Shown here in pieces: positions 22,678 to 31,637 of a stretch of DNA of 64,000 nt (positions are counted from its first letter, which is position 1; each line of letters starts with the position of its first letter). Made by a program: the position numbers and the translations under genes. Origin of the DNA: Vandammella animalimorsus (GTDB taxonomy: Bacteria > Pseudomonadota > Gammaproteobacteria > Burkholderiales > Burkholderiaceae_C); NCBI RefSeq assembly GCF_002285265.1, contig NZ_NSJB01000002.1, positions 248,001 through 312,000 on the forward strand, read 5' to 3'. A model generated the notes under the pieces. It searched no databases. It was not told where the DNA came from and worked only from the letters and a program-made list of their open reading frames with translations.

Positions 22678-23589
22678 TCAGCCATGCGCCGCATCCGGCT
22701 GGCCTGCGCCTTGCACGATGCGCGCAAACCACTCCTCCAGCGTGAACACGCGCTGCACGTCCACCAGCTCGCCCCCGGCCTGCGCAATGCCATCGAGCAA
22801 CTGCGGCACCTGGCTCTTGCCCACTTGCGCCTGCCAGATGCCGGGGCCGCTGGCAACAAAGCCCTCCAGCGGGCGCTCGCCGCTGTAGCGCACCACCATG
22901 TCGCCGTGGGTCAGCAACTCCGTCATGGGGGTGTCCGCCCGCAGGCGGCCCTGGTGAATCAGCAAAATGCGGCTGGCCAGCCGCTCCACGTCGTTGAGGA
23001 TGTGCGAGCAAAAGAACAGCGTGCCGCCGCGCTGGCGGTAGGCGTTCACCTCATCGGCCACCAGCTTGCGGCCCACCGGGTCCAGGCCCGACATGGGCTC
23101 GTCCAGCACCAGCAGGCGCGGCTCCAGCGCCAGCGCGTGCGCCAGCGCGGTGCGCTGCGTCATGCCTTTGGAGAGGTTGCGCACCCGCTTGTGCGCCGCG
23201 TAGCCAATGCCCATGCGCTCGAGCCACTGCATGGCGCGCGCCTGGGCGGCCGCGCCGCGCAGGCCCAGGTGAATGCCCAGGCCCATGCTCACCACCTCCA
23301 GCGGGGTCAGGTAGTCGTACAGATACGGGTTTTCCGGCACGTAGCCCACGCCCCGGCGCGCGCGCTCGTCGGCGGCCGGGCGGCCCATGAGCGTGATGCG
23401 GCCCTGGTCGGGGCGCAGCATGCCCATCAGCATCTTCATGCTGGTGCTCTTGCCCGCTCCGTTGGGGCCGACGAAGCCAATGGCCTCGCCAGGCTGCACG
23501 GCAAAGCCGATGTCCTGCACCGCCTGCACGGGCCGACCCTTGAGCCGGAAGCTCTTGCTCACGCCATCGAACTCAACCAGTGCGCTCAC
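22678..23589 (-). CDS. ABC-2 type transporter ATP-binding protein (PilH-like by context)
   Basis: The protein has 303 aa and starts at GTG. Motifs: Walker A GPNGAGKST, Q-loop region VGYVPENPYLYDYL, signature LSKGMTQR, Walker B LLVLDEPMSGLDPVG and the switch His in FCSHILNDVE. The C-terminal 80 residues are the regulatory extension of CcmA/drug-exporter type ATPases. The GTGA start overlaps the stop of the preceding gene, and with that gene and the permease it forms a tightly coupled three-gene operon. The pilin genes just upstream and the permease / single-pass protein / ATPase gene set recall Myxococcus pilG-pilH-pilI, an ABC exporter needed for type IV pili. Confidence 0.85.
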   Translation of the reverse strand: MSALVEFDGVSKSFRLKGRPVQAVQDIGFAVQPGEAIGFVGPNGAGKSTSMKMLMGMLRPDQGRITLMGRPAADERARRGVGYVPENPYLYDYLTPLEVVSMGLGIHLGLRGAAAQARAMQWLERMGIGYAAHKRVRNLSKGMTQRTALAHALALEPRLLVLDEPMSGLDPVGRKLVADEVNAYRQRGGTLFFCSHILNDVERLASRILLIHQGRLRADTPMTELLTHGDMVVRYSGERPLEGFVASGPGIWQAQVGKSQVPQLLDGIAQAGGELVDVQRVFTLEEWFARIVQGAGQPDAAHG

Positions 23590-24449
23590 TTCTTGTCCTC
23601 CCCGCCGTTCTTCATGCCGGCTGCCCCATGCGCGGCGCCTGCCAGTTGCGGCACGCCTTGCGCATCCAGTTCATAGCCCATGCCCAGCGGATCGCGCGGC
23701 AGGGCCGTCAGCAAGCCCCCGCCTAGCAGCTGTTCCAGCTGCGCAGGCGGCATGCCATGCCGCTGGCGGTAGGCGCTGACCGCCTGCCGCAAGGCCTGCA
23801 GGCCACGCAGGCGCTCAATGCGTGCGTCCATCAGGCGCAGGCTGCGCTCGTCGCTGGTGATGGTTTTGAGCCGCTCAATCATCTCAATGCCCTGCGCCGG
23901 GTCGTCCCCGCGCTCCAGCCACTTGGCCGCCATGGCACGCAGGGCCGAGGCGTTGGGTTCGCCTGTACGAAGGGCCGCGCGCTCGGCCCACTGCGCGGCC
24001 TGGGCGTAGTCACGCTCGAAATAGCTGGTGTTGAAGGCATAGAAAAACGCCGGCCACATGTCCCAGGGCCGGGCATCGGCCGCGCGGCGCAGCACCACTT
24101 GCGCTTGTTCCGTGTAACCCTGCCAGGGCAGCAGCGCGGCGGCCATGTAGTAGTTGTCTTCATGGCGCGGGTTCATCAACGAAGCATCTTCGGCCAGCGC
24201 GGCCTGCACGCGCAGTGTTTCGTGGTCGGTCACTTCAGTGCCCACAGTGATGCTGCGTATCACGGCCAAGTCGGCCGCCAGGTGGCGGTCGCCCCCGGCT
24301 TGCAGCACTTGCAGCAGCACGGGCATGCGCACGCGCAGGCCTTCGGCCATTTGCGCGCGGGGCCGAGCCTCCAGCTGGCGCAGGGCCAACGCGTACACCG
24401 CCACGGCCAGCGCGGCCACGGCCAGCGTCATCCAGCGGCGTCGGCTCAT
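23586..24449 (-). CDS. Single-pass membrane protein with helical (TPR-like) domain, partner of the ABC exporter
   Basis: The protein has 287 aa. It starts MSRRRWMTLAVAALAVAV, giving one N-terminal membrane segment (about 7-23). The rest is a mainly helical soluble region with TPR-like phrasing (EDNYYMAAALLPWQGYTEQAQVVLRRAADARP-type repeats, core PWQGYTEQAQVVLRRAAD). The C-terminus has a PxxLxxLLGGGLLxALPxDPLGxGY pattern (LGGGLLTALPRDPLGMGY), as in proteins linked to pilin maturation loci. The ATGA start overlaps the permease stop. I do not recognise a named family with certainty. By topology and place it could be the PilG-like component. Confidence 0.65.
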   Translation of the reverse strand: MSRRRWMTLAVAALAVAVYALALRQLEARPRAQMAEGLRVRMPVLLQVLQAGGDRHLAADLAVIRSITVGTEVTDHETLRVQAALAEDASLMNPRHEDNYYMAAALLPWQGYTEQAQVVLRRAADARPWDMWPAFFYAFNTSYFERDYAQAAQWAERAALRTGEPNASALRAMAAKWLERGDDPAQGIEMIERLKTITSDERSLRLMDARIERLRGLQALRQAVSAYRQRHGMPPAQLEQLLGGGLLTALPRDPLGMGYELDAQGVPQLAGAAHGAAGMKNGGEDKK

Positions 24450-25249
24450 AGCAGCTCGCGCCGCGCCAGCTTTCGGCCGGCCAAGGCCAGCAGGGCAGCG
24501 CCATAGGCGGCGGCCATCAGCACGGCCCAGCCAATCATCGGCCAGTCGGGCGGCAGGCCGTACAGGGCCAGGTCTCGCCAGTCCAGGCGCGACAAATCGG
24601 GCAGCACCCACTTGCCAGCTTGAATCACCGGCAGCAGCCAGCGTACTTGGTCAGGGTCGGCGTTTTGTGAGTGCAGCAGAAAATCCAGCGTGATGCCCAG
24701 CGAGCGCGCCGCCAGCGCGAACAGGCAGCCCATGATGAGCGGCAGAAAAGGCGTGGTCGATAGGCTGCACAGCCACAGCGCGAACGCAGTGATGACCAGC
24801 AAATCCAGCCACAGCCCCGCCAACGTCAGCACGTAGGGCCAGCCCAGGGCCACAGGCGTGGGTTGCGCATAGGTGCTCGGCAGCACGTGCATCACCACAC
24901 CCAACGCACCGCCTAGAATCAGCACGCCCAGCGCCAGCAGCGCGGCCACGGCAGCAAAGCGGCTGAGCAGGTAGGCCTCGCGCGAGATGGGGTAGGCCAG
25001 CACGAAGTACAGCGACTTGCGCTCCATGTCCTTGCCCAGCAGCTCCTGCACCCAGAACAAGGCCATCAGCATCAGCACCAGGCGCGTGCCGGACAGGCCC
25101 ACGTCCAGCGCCACCGTGGCGGGTTGGCGGGCCGAGAAATTGGCCGCCAGCCATGCAGCCAGCAGCACCAGCGCGGCCATCACCAGCAGCCAGCGCACAC
25201 TGTGTGCACGCATGCCCGACAGCCAAGCAGAGTAAACAAGTTTCCACAT
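24446..25249 (-). CDS. ABC-2 type transporter permease (PilI-like by context)
   Basis: The protein has 267 aa and six predicted membrane helices. The phrase ALFWVQELLGKDMERKSLYFVLAYPISREAYLLSRF (core ELLGKDMERKSLYFVLAYP) is typical of ABC-2 permeases, where a cytoplasmic loop touches the ATPase. It is the first gene of the three-gene exporter operon, 133 bp downstream of the second short pilin. No Shine-Dalgarno sequence stands before the ATG. The substrate is unknown. Proximity to pilins suggests a role in pilus biogenesis. Confidence 0.8.
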   Translation of the reverse strand: MWKLVYSAWLSGMRAHSVRWLLVMAALVLLAAWLAANFSARQPATVALDVGLSGTRLVLMLMALFWVQELLGKDMERKSLYFVLAYPISREAYLLSRFAAVAALLALGVLILGGALGVVMHVLPSTYAQPTPVALGWPYVLTLAGLWLDLLVITAFALWLCSLSTTPFLPLIMGCLFALAARSLGITLDFLLHSQNADPDQVRWLLPVIQAGKWVLPDLSRLDWRDLALYGLPPDWPMIGWAVLMAAAYGAALLALAGRKLARRELL

Positions 25250-25382
25250 AGAGTTAAATTATGCGTGGGAAACACGTTCACGACACGCCGCACAAACTAC
25301 AGCACCGCGTCTACACGGCAGGCGTTTGAAGCACACGCCTGACAAGGTTGCAGGCTATTCGGCACAGTTTCCGCTGCGAGCC

Positions 25383-25565
25383 TTATTTGACTGCATTGGC
25401 TGAGGCCAACGTCAGAAAGGCGCGGGCATCGGATGTTGCCACACGATCGGCTGCCTTGCGCTGGTACTCGCTGTACTGCGGAATGGCAATGGCCGCCAAA
25501 ATACCAATGATGGCCACCACGACCATCAGCTCGATCAGGGTAAAGCCGCTTTGTTGCACTCGCAT
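25383..25565 (-). CDS. Second short type IV pilin (stem-only prepilin)
   Basis: The protein has 60 aa. The class III leader MRVQQSG is followed by the cleavage site G|F and the N-terminal pilin helix [20 protein letters not shown], including E5 of the mature protein. The mature part is only 53 residues and ends after the helix (SANAVK), without the globular C-terminal domain of normal pilins (about 140-160 aa). Y24, Y27 and F43 are conserved with the other short pilin. No Shine-Dalgarno sequence precedes this ATG. A TTG at 25607 would give a 21-residue leader. The gene lies beyond the terminator at 25804-25830, so it needs its own promoter or read-through. Confidence 0.75.
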
Positions 25566-25803
25566 GGCGAAAACTTTCGTATCGGTGGTCGTAGAGATAA
25601 CAAACAAGGAAGGCGCAAACTACTAGCGTTTCGCACTCAGAAGCAGCGCACCCACCCTCTGCCTAGCCCGCACACAGCCTAAGAGAATAGCAATCTGTAG
25701 ACTCCGCGCAGTCGGGCTACAGCAACCAAATCAGCGAACGACTAGTCAGAAGCCGCTGTGGCTGACACCCAATAAGAACACAACAATCTGCTCAGGCATT
25801 TGC

Positions 25804-25830
25804 AAAAAAACGCACCCCTTACGGGGTGCG
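25804..25830 (-). terminator. Rho-independent terminator after the secreted pilin-partner gene
   Basis: The stem CGCACCCC / GGGGTGCG with a four-base loop is followed, on the minus strand, by seven T residues. It closes the first pilin transcript and separates it from the second short pilin. Confidence 0.85.
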
Positions 25831-25880
25831 CTAGCCTTAAAAACACCCCCGGCTTGAAGCCCGGGACGCAAGCGGCGTGA

Positions 25881-26261
25881 TCAACGACCGCAGGCGTTAG
25901 GTTTTGTCATGTCAGGGTCAGCCGTGGTGGGCGCGGTGGTGCCTGTGGTAGGGTCACCACACTGAGCCACACGACCGCCTTCGCTAAAACCGGTGTAGTT
26001 GTTGCGCCCCTTCTTGTTGGAAGTAGCCACTGCCACGGCCGTGTCGGTCTGAATCCACTTCAAGTGGACGTTGGCAGACACCGGCGATTCGAAGCCACTT
26101 TGCATGTAGCAAGTGCTATCAGCAGCAGGCTTAGCGTAAACATGCTTGTCACCGTTTGCGCCAGCCTCAGTTGCGCCGCTTCCCACTGCGCAATCAGCAA
26201 AAGCACCCATGGAGAAAGCGGAAGCCACAGCAGCCAAGGCGAGTTTAGTAGTGAGTTTCAT
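25881..26261 (-). CDS. Small secreted four-cysteine protein, candidate pilin head (PilA-C-like)
   Basis: The protein has 126 aa. The Sec signal peptide MKLTTKLALAAVASAFSMGAFA is predicted to be cut before DC, leaving about 104 residues. The mature part has four cysteines (near its start, STCYM, AQCGD and NACGR), enough for two disulfides. The last pair encloses a short Thr/Pro-rich loop at the very C-terminus, like the D-loop of type IV pilins. The gene stands 46 bp downstream of a stem-only pilin, with AAGGAA as ribosome binding site, and is followed by a terminator. By analogy with Geobacter PilA-N/PilA-C I infer that it supplies the missing globular domain. No sequence family is recognised. 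Confidence 0.7.
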   Translation of the reverse strand: MKLTTKLALAAVASAFSMGAFADCAVGSGATEAGANGDKHVYAKPAADSTCYMQSGFESPVSANVHLKWIQTDTAVAVATSNKKGRNNYTGFSEGGRVAQCGDPTTGTTAPTTADPDMTKPNACGR

Positions 26262-26307
26262 GGTAAAGATTCCTTTTCAATGATCAACGAGAAGAGTGGC
26301 AGACCGA

Positions 26308-26493
26308 TTACTTATTAGAGTTGGCCATAGCCGAGGTCAGGAAGTTCTTAGCGTCAGCTTGCGCTGCGCGATCATGACCCTTCTTCTGATACTCGCTGTA
26401 TTGGGGAATGGCGATAGCAGCCAGAATACCAATGATGGCAACCACGACCATCAGTTCGATCAGAGTAAAACCCTTTTGCAGAGATGCTTTCAT
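26308..26493 (-). CDS. Short type IV pilin (stem-only prepilin, PilA-N-like)
   Basis: The protein has 61 aa. Leader MKASLQKG, prepilin peptidase site G|F, then [20 protein letters not shown] with E5. The mature length is 53 residues with Y24, Y27 and F43, ending SAMANSNK just after the helix. Geobacter sulfurreducens PilA-N is similarly short (about 61 residues mature). AGGAGC stands 10 nt before the ATG. A consensus sigma-54 promoter lies about 60 bp upstream. The gene is co-transcribed with the secreted four-cysteine protein. It should be an inner-membrane prepilin that forms the filament core. The assembly genes pilB, pilC and pilD are not in the window. Confidence 0.88.
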
Positions 26494-26551
26494 ATATCTT
26501 GCTCCTATGGAAAACTGAATATTGAACCCCTCGTTCAACGCCGATGATGGA

Positions 26552-26567
26552 TGCAAGCGGCGTGCCA
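26552..26567 (-). promoter_or_regulatory. Sigma-54 (RpoN) promoter of the short pilin
   Basis: On the minus strand this reads TGGCACGCCGCTTGCA, a full match to the -24/-12 consensus TGGCACG-N4-TTGCW. Transcription would start about 12 bp after the GC of the -12 element, about 45-50 bp before the pilin ATG. Sigma-54 promoters activated by PilR are the rule for major pilin genes. Confidence 0.88.
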
Positions 26568-26838: not shown

Positions 26839-27510
26839 TCAAGATGCCGGAGGCAGCAAACGGAACACCATCTCAATGGCAGCCATGCGGATGCGGTCGC
26901 CGTCCTTGAGCTGGATGGGCTTGTTGGCGCCAATGGGCTGGTCGTTGACGAAGGCTTCTTGCGCGCCTTCGAGCTTGGTCAGGGTGTAGTGGTTGGGCCG
27001 GTGCGTGAAGGACAGCACGCCCACGGCGGGCGAACCGATGGTGGTGACGATTTTGTTGAGCATCAGGCGGCGGCCGGCGTTGACGCCAGTGGCGATGTCG
27101 ATGGCCGCTGGCAGGCTGCGCGCTATGAGGGCCGATGCGGGCTGGGTTTCCTCGAAGTGGTTGGCCGTCAGCGTGGGGGTGATGCTCTGGCCCGTGCCCC
27201 AGCTGTCTTCCATCTGCAGTTGCACGCTGATGCGGTAGGGGCCGATGACGATGCGGTCACCCAACTGCAGATCCTGGCGCACCTTGGCAGTGATGGGGTC
27301 GCCATTGACGTAGGTGCCGTTGGTGCTGCCCACGTCCTCGATGTCCAGTTGCGCGCCATTGATGCGCACGATGGCGTGCTTGCCACTGACGGTGGAGTCT
27401 TCCAGCACCAGGTCGTTGTGCTGGCGGCGGCCGATGTGTGTCAGCGGGGCGACCAGGGCGTGCTCTCGCATCACCTGGTCTTCCTTGGTGACGATGAGCT
27501 TGTAGGCCAT
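26839..27510 (-). CDS. Protein with two FHA domains
   Basis: The protein has 223 aa and is cytoplasmic. FHA domain 1 (about 15-95) shows the phosphothreonine-binding set: HIGRRQHNDLVLEDSTVSGKHAIV (core IGRRQHNDLVL, SGKHA) and GSTNGTYVNG. Domain 2 (about 145-220) keeps the fold (IGSPAVGVLSF, FVNDQPIGANKPIQLKDGDRI) but lacks the Arg and Ser-x-x-His residues, so it is probably not a phosphopeptide binder. FHA proteins read Ser/Thr phosphorylation, but no kinase is nearby. The start MAYKLIV is the common FHA-protein start. A GTG ten codons upstream, preceded by GAGG, is an alternative. Confidence 0.82.
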   Translation of the reverse strand: MAYKLIVTKEDQVMREHALVAPLTHIGRRQHNDLVLEDSTVSGKHAIVRINGAQLDIEDVGSTNGTYVNGDPITAKVRQDLQLGDRIVIGPYRISVQLQMEDSWGTGQSITPTLTANHFEETQPASALIARSLPAAIDIATGVNAGRRLMLNKIVTTIGSPAVGVLSFTHRPNHYTLTKLEGAQEAFVNDQPIGANKPIQLKDGDRIRMAAIEMVFRLLPPAS

Positions 27511-27964
27511 GGGGGAGAGCGCAGAGGTAAGCCGTTTCACACGTGGGCCTCGTAATCAAAGAGAGAGGATTGCAACCGCATGCCACCGGATAAAGCGGGT
27601 GCCGCTGCAGCGGGCCTGCACCTTGGGTGTCGGTACCAGCCATGTAGCTGCATCATAGCGGAAGTTGCTCGCTTGCTGTTTTCTGCATAAGCCAAAAAGC
27701 CTTGCTGGATAAGGGCTTGCGCGCATTTTGCGGGTGCACATGTTGCTTTCGTGCCGAAGGTTCTGGGTGCTGCAGCGACAATTCAAGAAACATTTGATTG
27801 ATATTTACCCGATTCAAATCTGGGGGCATTGATGCCGCGTCTGGGCATATAGACATGCAAACTGACCAAAAAATTAGCTCATTTTCAGGATCGCTCCTCT
27901 ACACTGGCGAGCCATTGGCACACACCCATTTTTGTTTCGTCCGTTTACGCAAAGGAATCACACC
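27511..27964. other. 454-bp intergenic region between the FHA gene and recA
   Basis: No gene is supported here. It must hold the recA promoter (a TACACT -10-like box at 27900-27905) and, on the minus strand, the FHA promoter. A degenerate LexA-type site, CTGG-N8-ACAT, is seen at 27841-27856. It deviates from CTGT-N8-ACAG at the outer position of each half. Confidence 0.4.
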
Positions 27965-30262: not shown

Positions 30263-31084
30263 TCACGCCCTCGGCGCGGTAAAGCGCTGCACGATGACTT
30301 CGTTGAAGAAGCGTCGATCCAGCCACAGCCAGACCAGAATCGGCACCAGGGTGGGCACGATCAGGGTGCCCAGCTGGAAGCCGTACACAATGGCCTCGAC
30401 CTGCCAGGGGCTCACGCGCAGCAGTGCGTAGTCGATCTGCGCGGCCACGATGATCTCCTTGAGGATGTAGAACACCACCGTGAAGGCCTGGAACGGCAAC
30501 AGCAGGCAATAGCCCGCCAGGGCCTTGCGCCACAGCCCGGGCTGGCGCGCGGCCAGCAGCAAAGCCAGAAAAATGGCCAGGCCATAGGCATAGCGCGAGG
30601 GGTCGGCCTCCAGCAAAACCTGCGCGTGGCGGCCCTGCGATTCGGGCACAGGCACGGCAATGCCGGTCTCCACCAGCACATGCCCTGCCCCGCCATCGCC
30701 TTGCTCGGCCTGGGCATGGCCGATGACCTGCGCCTTGCTCACCCAGACCGGCGCGCCCAGCTCCAGGGCCGTGGCGGCCATGAGGCTGACGGGGTAGGAC
30801 GTCCAGGGTTTGACGAACATCCACACGGCGATGAGCACGGCCATCCAGGCAAATGCCTTGGCCGCAAACACGGGCATGCGCACCGGCTTGCTGCGCACCG
30901 CTGGCTGGGCCGCAGGCGGCGCAATTGCAGGCGCCGGCGCGACTGCCGCAGCGGGCGCTGGCGGCCGGGCCGGGCGCGCCGAGCGCTCGGGCAAGGTGGC
31001 TGCCGAGGAGGTGGAAATCTGCGTGGCCGCTGGCGCTGACGCAGCGGCCGCTGGCGGGGGCGGGGGTGTGGTGGTCTCAGGCAT
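30263..31084 (-). CDS. Exosortase H-associated membrane protein
   Basis: The protein has 273 aa. An Ala/Pro-rich N-terminus (1-75) leads into four membrane helices (about 83-105, 175-190, 200-226 and 238-262). Between TM1 and TM2 lies an extracytoplasmic region of about 70 residues. Its start overlaps the xrtH stop by 8 bp, and partner membrane proteins of this kind are known next to exosortase H. The precise role in sorting IPTL-CTERM proteins is unknown. Confidence 0.72.
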   Translation of the reverse strand: MPETTTPPPPPAAAASAPAATQISTSSAATLPERSARPARPPAPAAAVAPAPAIAPPAAQPAVRSKPVRMPVFAAKAFAWMAVLIAVWMFVKPWTSYPVSLMAATALELGAPVWVSKAQVIGHAQAEQGDGGAGHVLVETGIAVPVPESQGRHAQVLLEADPSRYAYGLAIFLALLLAARQPGLWRKALAGYCLLLPFQAFTVVFYILKEIIVAAQIDYALLRVSPWQVEAIVYGFQLGTLIVPTLVPILVWLWLDRRFFNEVIVQRFTAPRA

Positions 31085-31637
31085 GGACGAGCTCACCGGG
31101 GTTGCCGCCGCCGCCCGGCGGCGGGGTGGTGCTGCCCACGTCATCGCCGGCATCATCCGCCGGGCGCTGCAGGCTGCGCACCCACAGCAGCCAGACGATG
31201 AGCACGTCGATCATGATCAGCGCCTGCCACAGGTACTCGTGCGCGAACTTGAACACCGCCTCATCCCACTGCCCCAGGTAGAACAGGCTGATGACGCGCA
31301 CCACATTGACCGCCTGAACGGCCACAAAGCCCAGCACGATGCCCACCAGCTTGGCGCGCCAGCTCGAAGGGTAGGCCATGATGGCGGAGAACAGCACGAT
31401 GCAGGCCTCAACGCCGTTGCAGCCAGGCTCGATGGAAACGCCAAAGCCTGTGCTGGGGTTCCACAGCACCTTGCCGGAGGCCATGGCGGTGGCGTCGAAG
31501 GTCGTGACCAGGTAGGCGCACATCTGCGCCAGCAGCGAAGTCCAGGGCAAAACCACGGTCTGCTGCACGCTGTTGAGCATGTTCAGGCCGAACAGCAACA
31601 GCTGCAACAGGACGAAGATCAAAAAGAAACGCTTCAT
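31077..31637 (-). CDS. xrtH: Exosortase H (IPTLxxWG-CTERM sorting enzyme)
   Basis: The protein has 186 aa and about five membrane helices. The exosortase catalytic triad is present: C73 in EPGCNGVEA, R114 in NVVRVISLFYLG and H133 in FKFAHEYLW. Small size and the spelling around the Cys fit exosortase H rather than EpsH-like exosortases. It is predicted to cleave C-terminal IPTL-CTERM anchors at the inner membrane and pass the protein to the outer surface. The C-terminus is a Gly/Pro-rich tail. No IPTL-CTERM substrate is encoded in the window. Confidence 0.85.
   Translation of the reverse strand: MKRFFLIFVLLQLLLFGLNMLNSVQQTVVLPWTSLLAQMCAYLVTTFDATAMASGKVLWNPSTGFGVSIEPGCNGVEACIVLFSAIMAYPSSWRAKLVGIVLGFVAVQAVNVVRVISLFYLGQWDEAVFKFAHEYLWQALIMIDVLIVWLLWVRSLQRPADDAGDDVGSTTPPPGGGGNPGELVHA

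Follow-up and report, generated by a model that had tools for sequence, protein, structure and literature searches.

In the stretch of Vandammella animalimorsus DNA analysed here (NZ_NSJB01000002.1, positions 248,001-312,000 of the forward strand; in the following "the window", 64,000 nt), a block of leftward-reading genes combines elements of a type IV pilin locus with an ABC transport operon. A sequence-only reading had proposed this arrangement beforehand, and every element was confirmed at its claimed place. The order, 5' to 3', is a sigma-54 site, a first stem-only pilin (stem 1), a secreted four-cysteine protein (the candidate head), a terminator, a second stem-only pilin (stem 2) and the genes of a permease, a single-pass protein and an ATPase:

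26839..27540, minus strand: FHA-domain gene, outside the cassette; marker of the pilA locus and next upstream gene in 7 genus members
26553..26567, minus strand: sigma-54 type (-24/-12) promoter element of the stem 1 gene, TGGCACGCCGCTTGC, starting 74 bp 5' of the ATG
26408..26412, minus strand: end of DNA similarity to the full-length pilA of the close relative G007, at about pilin codon 28
26308..26493, minus strand: stem-only type IV pilin 1 (PilA-N-like), 61 aa, 53 aa mature; N_methyl PF07963, E 2.8e-10
25881..26261, minus strand: putative secreted head subunit (PilA-C-like), 126 aa, 104 aa past the Sec signal, 4 Cys
25809..25832, minus strand: intrinsic terminator 3' of the head gene, 10-pair hairpin plus T tract
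25383..25565, minus strand: second stem-only pilin, without head, 60 aa, 53 aa mature; PF07963, E 1.5e-10
24446..25249, minus strand: ABC-2 type permease; weak ABC2_membrane matches (E 2e-5, slightly under the Pfam cut-off), 97% identical in L018
23586..24449, minus strand: single-pass protein in the PilG position, its large domain probably periplasmic; family A3
22678..23589, minus strand: ABC ATPase (PilH position); PF00005, E 6.5e-32; GTG start overlapping the preceding stop

This sigma-54 pattern was present within 250 bp upstream in 26 of 50 stem pilins tested, stem 1 among them, compared with 1.1% of 20,000 random 250-bp windows. The terminator hairpin, with its 10 pairs, ranks highest among 11 sites found, where shuffles predict 4.6 sites. 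A dip in GC content against the flanks had also been described; it holds for stem 1 (0.48), the head (0.57) and stem 2 (0.56), not for the ABC genes (0.66-0.70), and the neighbouring FHA gene lies at 0.64. Since both full-length pilA genes of the sister species G007 are low in GC as well (0.56, 0.58), the dip by itself is uninformative about transfer and was rejected as evidence for it.

Stem 1 consists of a class III leader and an alpha-1 stem without a globular domain, the chain stopping at mature residue 53, and is 97% identical in L018. Its aromatic count is five if His is counted in. In the PDB, its best matches were "Geopilin domain 1" chains (9egp_A, 7tgg_A, 2m7g/6vk9). The head gene starts 46 bp downstream of stem 1, and its product carries a Sec signal, which was read by eye together with its AFA/D cleavage site. 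While neither a Pfam match nor an NCBIfam match over cut-off was obtained for the head, its family profile found 9egp_B, "Geopilin domain 2", as best match among 177,635 PDB sequences (E 1.2e-4); after removal of the N-terminal 45 residues 9egp_B was matched at E 2e-4, with 6vk9_D (0.66) and 7tgg_a (0.93) further down the list. The one single head sequence tried placed PilA-C third (E 0.62), and a first profile of 12 rows did not find PilA-C in the PDB. From the profile matches, the head family appears to be homologous to Geobacter PilA-C, and the Geobacter analogy thus extends beyond gene order, as PilA-C is the profile's top PDB match. A fold predicted from 12 sequences (mean pLDDT 59, pTM 0.50, four strands at 66-106) would be compatible with a pilin head, yet is too weak to count. 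The head HMM and the A5 alignment exclude three heads as too divergent (L047, L205, L206); two of these, L206 and L047, were afterwards recognised by the HMM when a small set was searched, L047 being missed in the wider stem-head count, and the heads of G006 and G557 fall below the HMM cut-off used and are named heads by position.

The three genes of the ABC operon are coupled through ATGA and GTGA overlaps over 25249-22678, as had been claimed. Compared with the drrA subfamily, the ATPase scores E 4e-50, which is under that subfamily's cut-off. For the middle protein, Pfam gave a match at chance level only, NCBIfam none, and a search of plasmid records none; PDB matches (E 0.002 and 0.008) were rejected as repeat-protein-like chance matches. 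Weak matches to the middle protein family occurred in 100 more of 349 genomes, mostly in open frames of 120-230 aa, and covered, among the matches listed, only the C-terminal third (mostly positions 215-256), which we tentatively take to be a GspG-like C-terminal motif.

When 349 genomes were sampled across the order, stem pilins and full-length middle ABC proteins occurred, among the matches listed, in the same 21 genomes (hypergeometric 4e-34, kinship uncorrected), where stems were counted above a score gap, so that divergent stems under the gap may be missed. A head or head-like ORF adjoins the stem in 21 of 21 stem genomes, 20 by profile and one, G423, by position. BLAST in 100 relatives placed the head family at 8 places in 5 genomes (the own genome included), all 8 immediately preceded by a stem of 53-55 aa, and the order-wide head profile search yielded 30 places in 20/349 genomes, of which 27 lie, by coordinates, directly 3' of a stem and the remaining 3 adjoin such a pair. 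Even where the ABC operon and the pilins lie on separate contigs, as in the drafts G003 and G080, they are still co-present. The gene set therefore recurs in other Burkholderiales as a linked set, and an unlinked distribution, named beforehand as an argument against the reading, was not what we found. Its design extends to seven families of the order and, outside it, to several further gammaproteobacterial families (in the GTDB sense). In the class sample, one of eight PilG-positive genomes (G510) features full-length pilins in place of stems, with no stem-only pilin found near by; the link between the ABC module and the split is thus not strict. When these pilins were compared with the head in search of a fused C-terminal head ("Rosetta stone"), they reached 10.6 bits (attained by 1/1000 shuffles) and 4.0 bits (16/1000) against the head HMM, and hhalign gave the first of them a probability of 0.4%, an ordinary pilin used as control scoring 0.9%.

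Compared with L018, the single comparison genome, the dN/dS of five cassette genes, the ATPase not among them, amounts to ~0.04 for stem 1, ~0.11 for the head, ~0.18 for stem 2, ~0.06 for the permease and ~0.09 for the middle protein. As L018 and G008 are the identical assembly, they count as one witness, not two. These ratios indicate that stem and head are under purifying selection, and, together with the recurrence in many genomes, they indicate that the arrangement is more than chance.

Within the genus, five of ten species carry the split cassette and five a full-length PilA. The FHA gene is the next upstream gene both of the split cassette in four of the five split species (G000, G008, G004, G006) and of the full-length pilA in three of the five others (G007, G001, G002); this linkage is absent in G003, G005 and G009. 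With G007, the DNA shares 88.5% identity over 5.6 kb, stopping at ~26410, and the sliding identity falls from ~0.9 right before 26408 to ~0.33 after it. This comparison of sequences shows that, relative to sister species, the cassette occupies the locus of the full-length pilA; it seems to have been acquired by transfer, for which the support is other than GC. TfpX/TfpZ was found in four of the five full-length species (two under the family cut-off) and in none of the five split species, and thus looks like an alternative to the ABC module; it adjoins the full-length pilA in G007 and G001 and was not found in the full-length species G002. Like the ABC module, TfpX/TfpZ (NF041437) is an accessory beside the major pilin, although of a different protein family.

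Two known systems resemble parts of this locus. Geobacter, which belongs to a different phylum from this bacterium, builds filaments from a short PilA-N plus a separate PilA-C, and Myxococcus needs the ABC exporter PilGHI for its pili. In Geobacter sulfurreducens (GSU1496/GSU1497; 6VK9, 7TGG and the like-named 9EGP) a stem-only pilin is likewise followed by a head gene, and PilA-C has 104 aa (PilA-N 61 aa; parts of PMC11046646), as does the mature head here, while the stem of 61 aa compares with 53 aa. The heads here are too diverged from PilA-C for clear recognition from single sequences, and many loci contain a second, headless stem. In the available parts of PMC5174107 (Shu et al., 2016), full-length-pilin and truncated-pilin species stand side by side in Geobacter, the split being derived there by fission of a full-length gene; the cassette described here, by contrast, stands where relatives have a full-length pilA of unrelated appearance, and seemingly arrived by transfer. 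The same parts mention truncated pilins outside Geobacter, including Candidatus Accumulibacter and Neisseriaceae, and treat the partner gene for Geobacter-type genomes, with neither a head partner nor an ABC module nor a locus swap given there for Betaproteobacteria. The Geobacter filament itself is disputed: PMC9207759, in the part available, calls the PilA-N/PilA-C filament an artefact, while PMC12954529 and PMC11046646, likewise in part, describe PilA-C as an equal-part component of Geobacter T4P. PilG/PilH/PilI of Myxococcus xanthus likewise join an ATPase and a permease to a third protein in association with type IV pilins; in the cassette operon the three genes overlap, and the membrane-anchored third protein is tied to the pilin by the co-occurrence in 21/349 genomes (among the matches listed). 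Unlike the stem-only pilin here, however, Myxococcus PilA is full-length, and the PilG likeness is one of operon position.

These parallels have to be weighed against other explanations. The ABC operon might be an ordinary drug, lipid or glycan exporter that stands beside the pilin genes by accident: ABC transporters are many per genome, PilGHI-like matches occur in almost all bacteria studied in the parts of PMC6060248 available, and the ATPase matches the broad export families drrA, gldA and nodI, each under cut-off. Moreover, two of the inspected clusters contain Wzy_C ligase and glycosyltransferase genes, which makes a glycan role conceivable. Nevertheless, we consider an accidental neighbour unlikely, since the full-length middle protein was restricted to stem-positive genomes (21/349, among the matches listed), co-presence holds with the operon on a separate contig, and the five genus mates that carry a full-length pilA yielded no match to the middle protein. 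Alternatively, stems alone could polymerise, as has been proposed for the Geobacter "e-pili" (pilin-only filaments are defended in PMC9207759, as far as its available part goes), the secreted protein being a co-expressed but separate adhesin or chaperone. Such a filament would suit the surplus of stems (59 stems of 45-60 aa versus 37 head ORFs immediately following one, counted over the examined stretches, the HMM having missed the heads of 2 stems) and the far greater variability of the heads (dN 0.18 versus 0.025 for the stems). That stems polymerise alone is nonetheless quite improbable in view of the head family's match to PilA-C, the equal-part component described for Geobacter in the two sources cited above, and of the presence of a head in every one of the 21 stem-carrying genomes in the order sample (one by position).

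A third explanation takes the stems for minor pilins or for full-length pilins that have decayed or been truncated, with another full-length pilin building the filament. It concerns the pilins encoded in the own genome, a 22-contig draft rated 99.7% complete. A check by name for the type IVa machine, which covered PilB and PilQ, found both, 801 and 500 bits above cut-off, respectively. The genome has 15 other N_methyl proteins: 5 fall, by coordinates, within the T2SS gene groups of contigs C8 and C22, and among the other 10, which were scanned with family libraries, no full-length major pilin was recognised. Two full-length PilE/ComP-like pilins, which by family alone would be classed as minor, are present, as are further minor pilins and two T2SS pseudopilin sets; drafts could also hide a full-length pilA, and G136, the one split genome outside the genus looked at for full-length pilins, carries a full-length pilin ORF next to its split pair. 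On the other side, stem 1 is under strong purifying selection, has a pilin-type promoter and occupies the locus of a full-length pilA, and the stems are the sole major-pilin-like N_methyl proteins recognised. The idea of filaments made only of full-length pilins, also considered beforehand, is weakened by the presence of PilB and PilQ and by the result for the 10 proteins scanned, and we hold decayed stems to be the least probable of these explanations.

The split-pilin reading, in turn, is supported by the match of the head profile to PilA-C, that of the stem to PilA-N and the co-occurrence of stem and middle protein. The block is therefore likely to encode a type IVa pilus subunit made of two chains (a heterodimer), of the kind known from Geobacter PilA-N/PilA-C, plus a dedicated ABC module. 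Its distribution is best read as the horizontal spread of such a Geobacter-type subunit in company with a PilGHI-like ABC module, displacing the ordinary pilA. That stem and head share one filament, their stoichiometry and the step served by the ABC module are what we infer here. The stem would enter the inner membrane and be cut and methylated by PilD, while the head would be exported by Sec and fold in the periplasm, with disulfides where cysteines exist. The head might then dock on the C-terminal half of the stem, and the ordinary T4aP machine of the host could polymerise the stem-head complex. The ABC transporter, with a middle subunit that probably has a large domain in the periplasm, may spend ATP to load, release or quality-check headless stems and may stand in for a TfpX/TfpZ-type accessory of full-length pilins. 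Extra stems without a head are seen repeatedly in relatives. Stem 2, which lacks its own head, is probably a subunit present at a low level or at the end of the filament.

More tentatively, and at somewhat less than even confidence, the major subunits could represent two interchangeable cassettes on a common machine, either a full-length PilA (mostly with TfpX/TfpZ) or a separate stem and head served by a PilGHI-like loader of the ABC type. Species would exchange the whole cassette through recombination at pilA, one of the breakpoints falling among the near-universal codons of alpha-1. Dividing the subunit would permit fast exchange and duplication of heads on a fixed stem, and the ABC module would be a dedicated factor handling headless stems or mating the chains.

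The split pilin was previously known from Geobacter, where it has been argued over as a nanowire; here, the split design alternates with an ordinary pilA inside one genus. The genus consequently offers a natural experiment, in which sister species combine the same pilus machine with different subunit cassettes. This makes the role of the poorly understood PilGHI-type transporter testable, as well as the effect of a split subunit on pilus function, phage susceptibility and surface variation.

The pilin block lies entirely on the minus strand, and the gene layout claimed for it by the sequence-only reading, i.e., a sigma-54 promoter, two stem-only pilins, a secreted protein and an ABC exporter operon, proved accurate. 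Below, stems are short type IV pilins without globular domain and heads their separately secreted partners; in order of transcription, the elements are:

26567-26553, minus strand: sigma-54 type site, the first element
26493-26308, minus strand: stem-only prepilin 1, after the sigma-54 type site
26261-25881, minus strand: Sec-secreted four-cysteine protein (head), after stem 1
25832-25809, minus strand: strong terminator, after the head gene
25565-25383, minus strand: stem-only prepilin 2, after the terminator
25249-24446, minus strand: permease, first gene of the ABC operon; gene ends overlap
24449-23586, minus strand: single-pass protein (middle protein), between permease and ATPase; gene ends overlap
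23589-22678, minus strand: ABC ATPase, last gene of the block; gene ends overlap

The organism is a comamonad. Its closest record with a name is L018, a “Comamonadaceae bacterium” MAG from the same assembly as genus mate G008; L018 has the block, up to the limit of its contig, and the recA-side neighbours in common with the window. Exosortase H (XrtH; 31077-31637, minus strand) and its associated membrane protein (30263-31156, minus strand) are also encoded in the window, some 4 kb away from the pilins, both well above the NCBIfam cut-offs; by eye or DNA match, this pair likewise adjoins the block in L018 and pilA in genus mate G007.

The head protein gave no match in Pfam and none above cut-off in NCBIfam. 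Among 100 relatives, BLAST located its family in five genomes, own included, at eight places, all eight directly preceded by a stem-only pilin, and in 349 genomes of the order a 12-row profile detected it at 30 places, spread over 20 genomes. Of these places, 27 are directly behind a stem (counted from coordinates) and the other three (G150, G188, G307) beside such a pair. Conservation is strongest at F57, S62, V65, G85, G95 and G96 (window protein numbering), and heads contain two to seven cysteines. Searched against 177,635 PDB sequences, a 34-head profile matched 9egp_B, “Geopilin domain 2 protein”, best and over nearly its full length (E 1.2e-4; runner-up an antibody, E 0.075). This entry remained first after trimming the N-terminal 45 residues of the profile (E 2e-4; runner-up an antibody, E 0.018), with the other geopilin domain 2 sequences 6vk9_D (E 0.66) and 7tgg_a (E 0.93) lying among chance matches; the 12-row profile did not find 9egp_B in the PDB, and the one single head tried ranked it only third (E 0.62). 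PilA-N chains are the best PDB matches of the stem, in a region common to all type IV pilins.

In Geobacter pili, PilA-N (61 aa) and PilA-C (104 aa) are described as present in equal parts in the accessible text of the respective reports (PMC12954529; PMC11046646), and the available part of another calls this filament an artefact (PMC9207759). Because the defining features of Geobacter PilA-N/PilA-C, where testable, were found in the window, the block is filed, as judged from its genes, as a variant of this kind. Compared with Geobacter, three features are added here: the ABC module linked to the pilins, additional stems that lack a head, and the exchange with a different pilA at the locus.

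A profile of the middle protein gave full-length matches in 21 of the 349 genomes of the order (E ≤ 4.9e-64), the next match having E 4e-8 and spanning 42 positions. Among the matches listed, stem-only pilins occurred in the same 21 genomes (E ≤ 1.3e-25), which span seven families; below this cut, the next listed match has 1.2e-23 and those listed are longer frames except two at contig ends. The head profile recovers 20 of the 21 genomes, and the last one, G423, has a head-like ORF right behind the stem, which is recognised by the head HMM, but this was built with the G423 head included. The hypergeometric value for co-occurrence of stem and middle protein, 4e-34, is inflated by relatedness; the patchy spread of the middle protein helps the association nonetheless. 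Among 149 relatives, own-family full-length matches were confined to the window's genus, a count leaving out one partial match (4e-4) in another genus. Since ABC operon and pilins lie on different contigs in G003, from the genus sample, and in G080, both drafts, the association is probably more than adjacency.

Weak matches to the C-terminal end of the middle protein (Y..HG..P..L..LL..GLL..LP.DPLG.GY; profile positions 215-256), possibly GspG pseudopilins, occur in a further 100 of the 349 genomes. According to the accessible text of PMC6060248, PilGHI-like matches occur in almost all bacteria studied, and Geobacter and its kin have the T4aP gene arrangement of Myxococcus relatives, pilH being named for some members of that group.

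Within the class, the middle protein was found in 8 of 321 genomes, own included (E up to 1e-15), and in six of the seven others a head-like ORF immediately follows a stem. One of these six heads (from G557) was missed by the head HMM, and three others had been used in building it. The seventh genome, G510, encodes two full-length pilins, the N-terminal part of the first having Geobacter PilA-N as best match, and therefore the ABC module goes with this pilin lineage and not strictly with the split. In G460, one of the six, the permease and middle-protein genes of the ABC operon are separated by a two-gene unit (L203:6185-6846) that by eye resembles an antitoxin and PIN-domain toxin pair.

Within the genus, five of ten species (G000, G003, G004, G006, G008) carry the split cassette of stem, head and ABC genes, and full-length PilA is the best match in G001, G002, G005, G007 and G009. 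In G000, G008, G004 and G006 the split cassette has the same FHA gene as its immediate upstream neighbour, and so does full-length pilA in G007, G001 and G002; best FHA match and pilins are on different contigs in G003, G005 and G009. The FHA protein of G007 is 97% identical to the window's, and the two genomes share 88.5% DNA identity across 5.6 kb, from recA and FHA over the promoter region into the pilin gene, of which the first ~28 codons are included; strong amino-acid conservation of these codons may add to the match. Similarity ends at about 26410, sliding identity being ~0.9 just before and ~0.33 beyond; before that point it also drops at two non-coding places (26842-26738 and around 26527-26483). 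TfpX/TfpZ, whose gene adjoins full-length pilA, occurs in four of the five full-length species (two below the family cut-off) and in none of the five split species. In a tree of 32 middle proteins, G000, G003, G004 and G008 form a separate group (support 99/99), and the protein of G006 clusters with those of G595 and G557, which belong to other orders (support 100/100). This phylogeny suggests that the module of the genus has two or more origins, or a single one plus replacement. Between window and L018, synonymous sites diverge more in stem 1 (0.65) and head (1.63) than in FHA, permease and middle protein (0.25–0.31), suggesting that alleles of pilin and head have been exchanged; stem 1 has a dN/dS of ~0.04 and the head one of 0.11.

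In the own genome, a draft of 99.7% completeness, 17 proteins match N_methyl, two being the window stems. Ten of the other 15 were scanned, namely two ComP-type (PilE-like), two GspH/FimT-like, PilV, two PilW-like (one below cut-off) and three T2SS components, and no ordinary full-length major pilin was recognised among these ten, the ComP-type proteins being classed as minor from family only; the remaining five sit among T2SS genes. PilB and PilQ are present above cut-offs. PilSR/sigma-54 control is a mark of major pilins, and of 50 stem pilins tested, 26 have a -24/-12 site in the 250 bp before them, versus 1.1% of 20,000 random windows.

The stretches examined hold 59 stems versus 37 heads directly behind a stem. 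Many genomes have, alongside a stem-head pair, a second stem without own head and often with divergent leader, like stem 2 (L018, L027-L029, L032, L048-L050, L142, L143, L145, L148-L151, L154, L155, L157, L158). Tandem or dispersed stem-head copies occur in L143 and L144 (G367), L027-L029 (G003), L151 (G157) and L154 (G240). Stems of copied pairs are very similar (dN 0.07, one pair) and heads diverged in some genomes (dN 0.38, 0.23 and 0.09, three pairs), as if heads were diversifying on a fixed stem. In two split-pilin clusters, Wzy_C O-antigen-ligase-like and TPR / glycosyltransferase family 9 proteins are encoded among the pilin and ABC genes (L050:4004-5284, L049:13578-14879, L050:5298-7292, L049:8436-11975), hinting at glycosylated heads or stems there.

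The split pilin of Geobacter is already known, as is the alternation of full-length and truncated pilins between species of that genus, which the accessible part of PMC5174107 attributes to gene fission while listing, in 2016, truncated pilins beyond Geobacter, including Accumulibacter and Neisseriaceae. For Betaproteobacteria, the open-access literature, to the extent its text was available, yielded no description of a partner head, an ABC module or exchange with full-length pilA. Gene content, family matches, co-occurrence and the difference at one locus are established here, and a two-chain subunit of PilA-N/PilA-C type with a dedicated ABC module is, in our view, the likely product. PilD would cleave the stem and Sec export the head, which could then dock onto the stem for assembly of the complex by the pilus machine. 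Because basic residues precede its only clear membrane helix (by eye), the body of the middle protein is probably periplasmic; it may hold stems or heads while ATPase and permease power their release.
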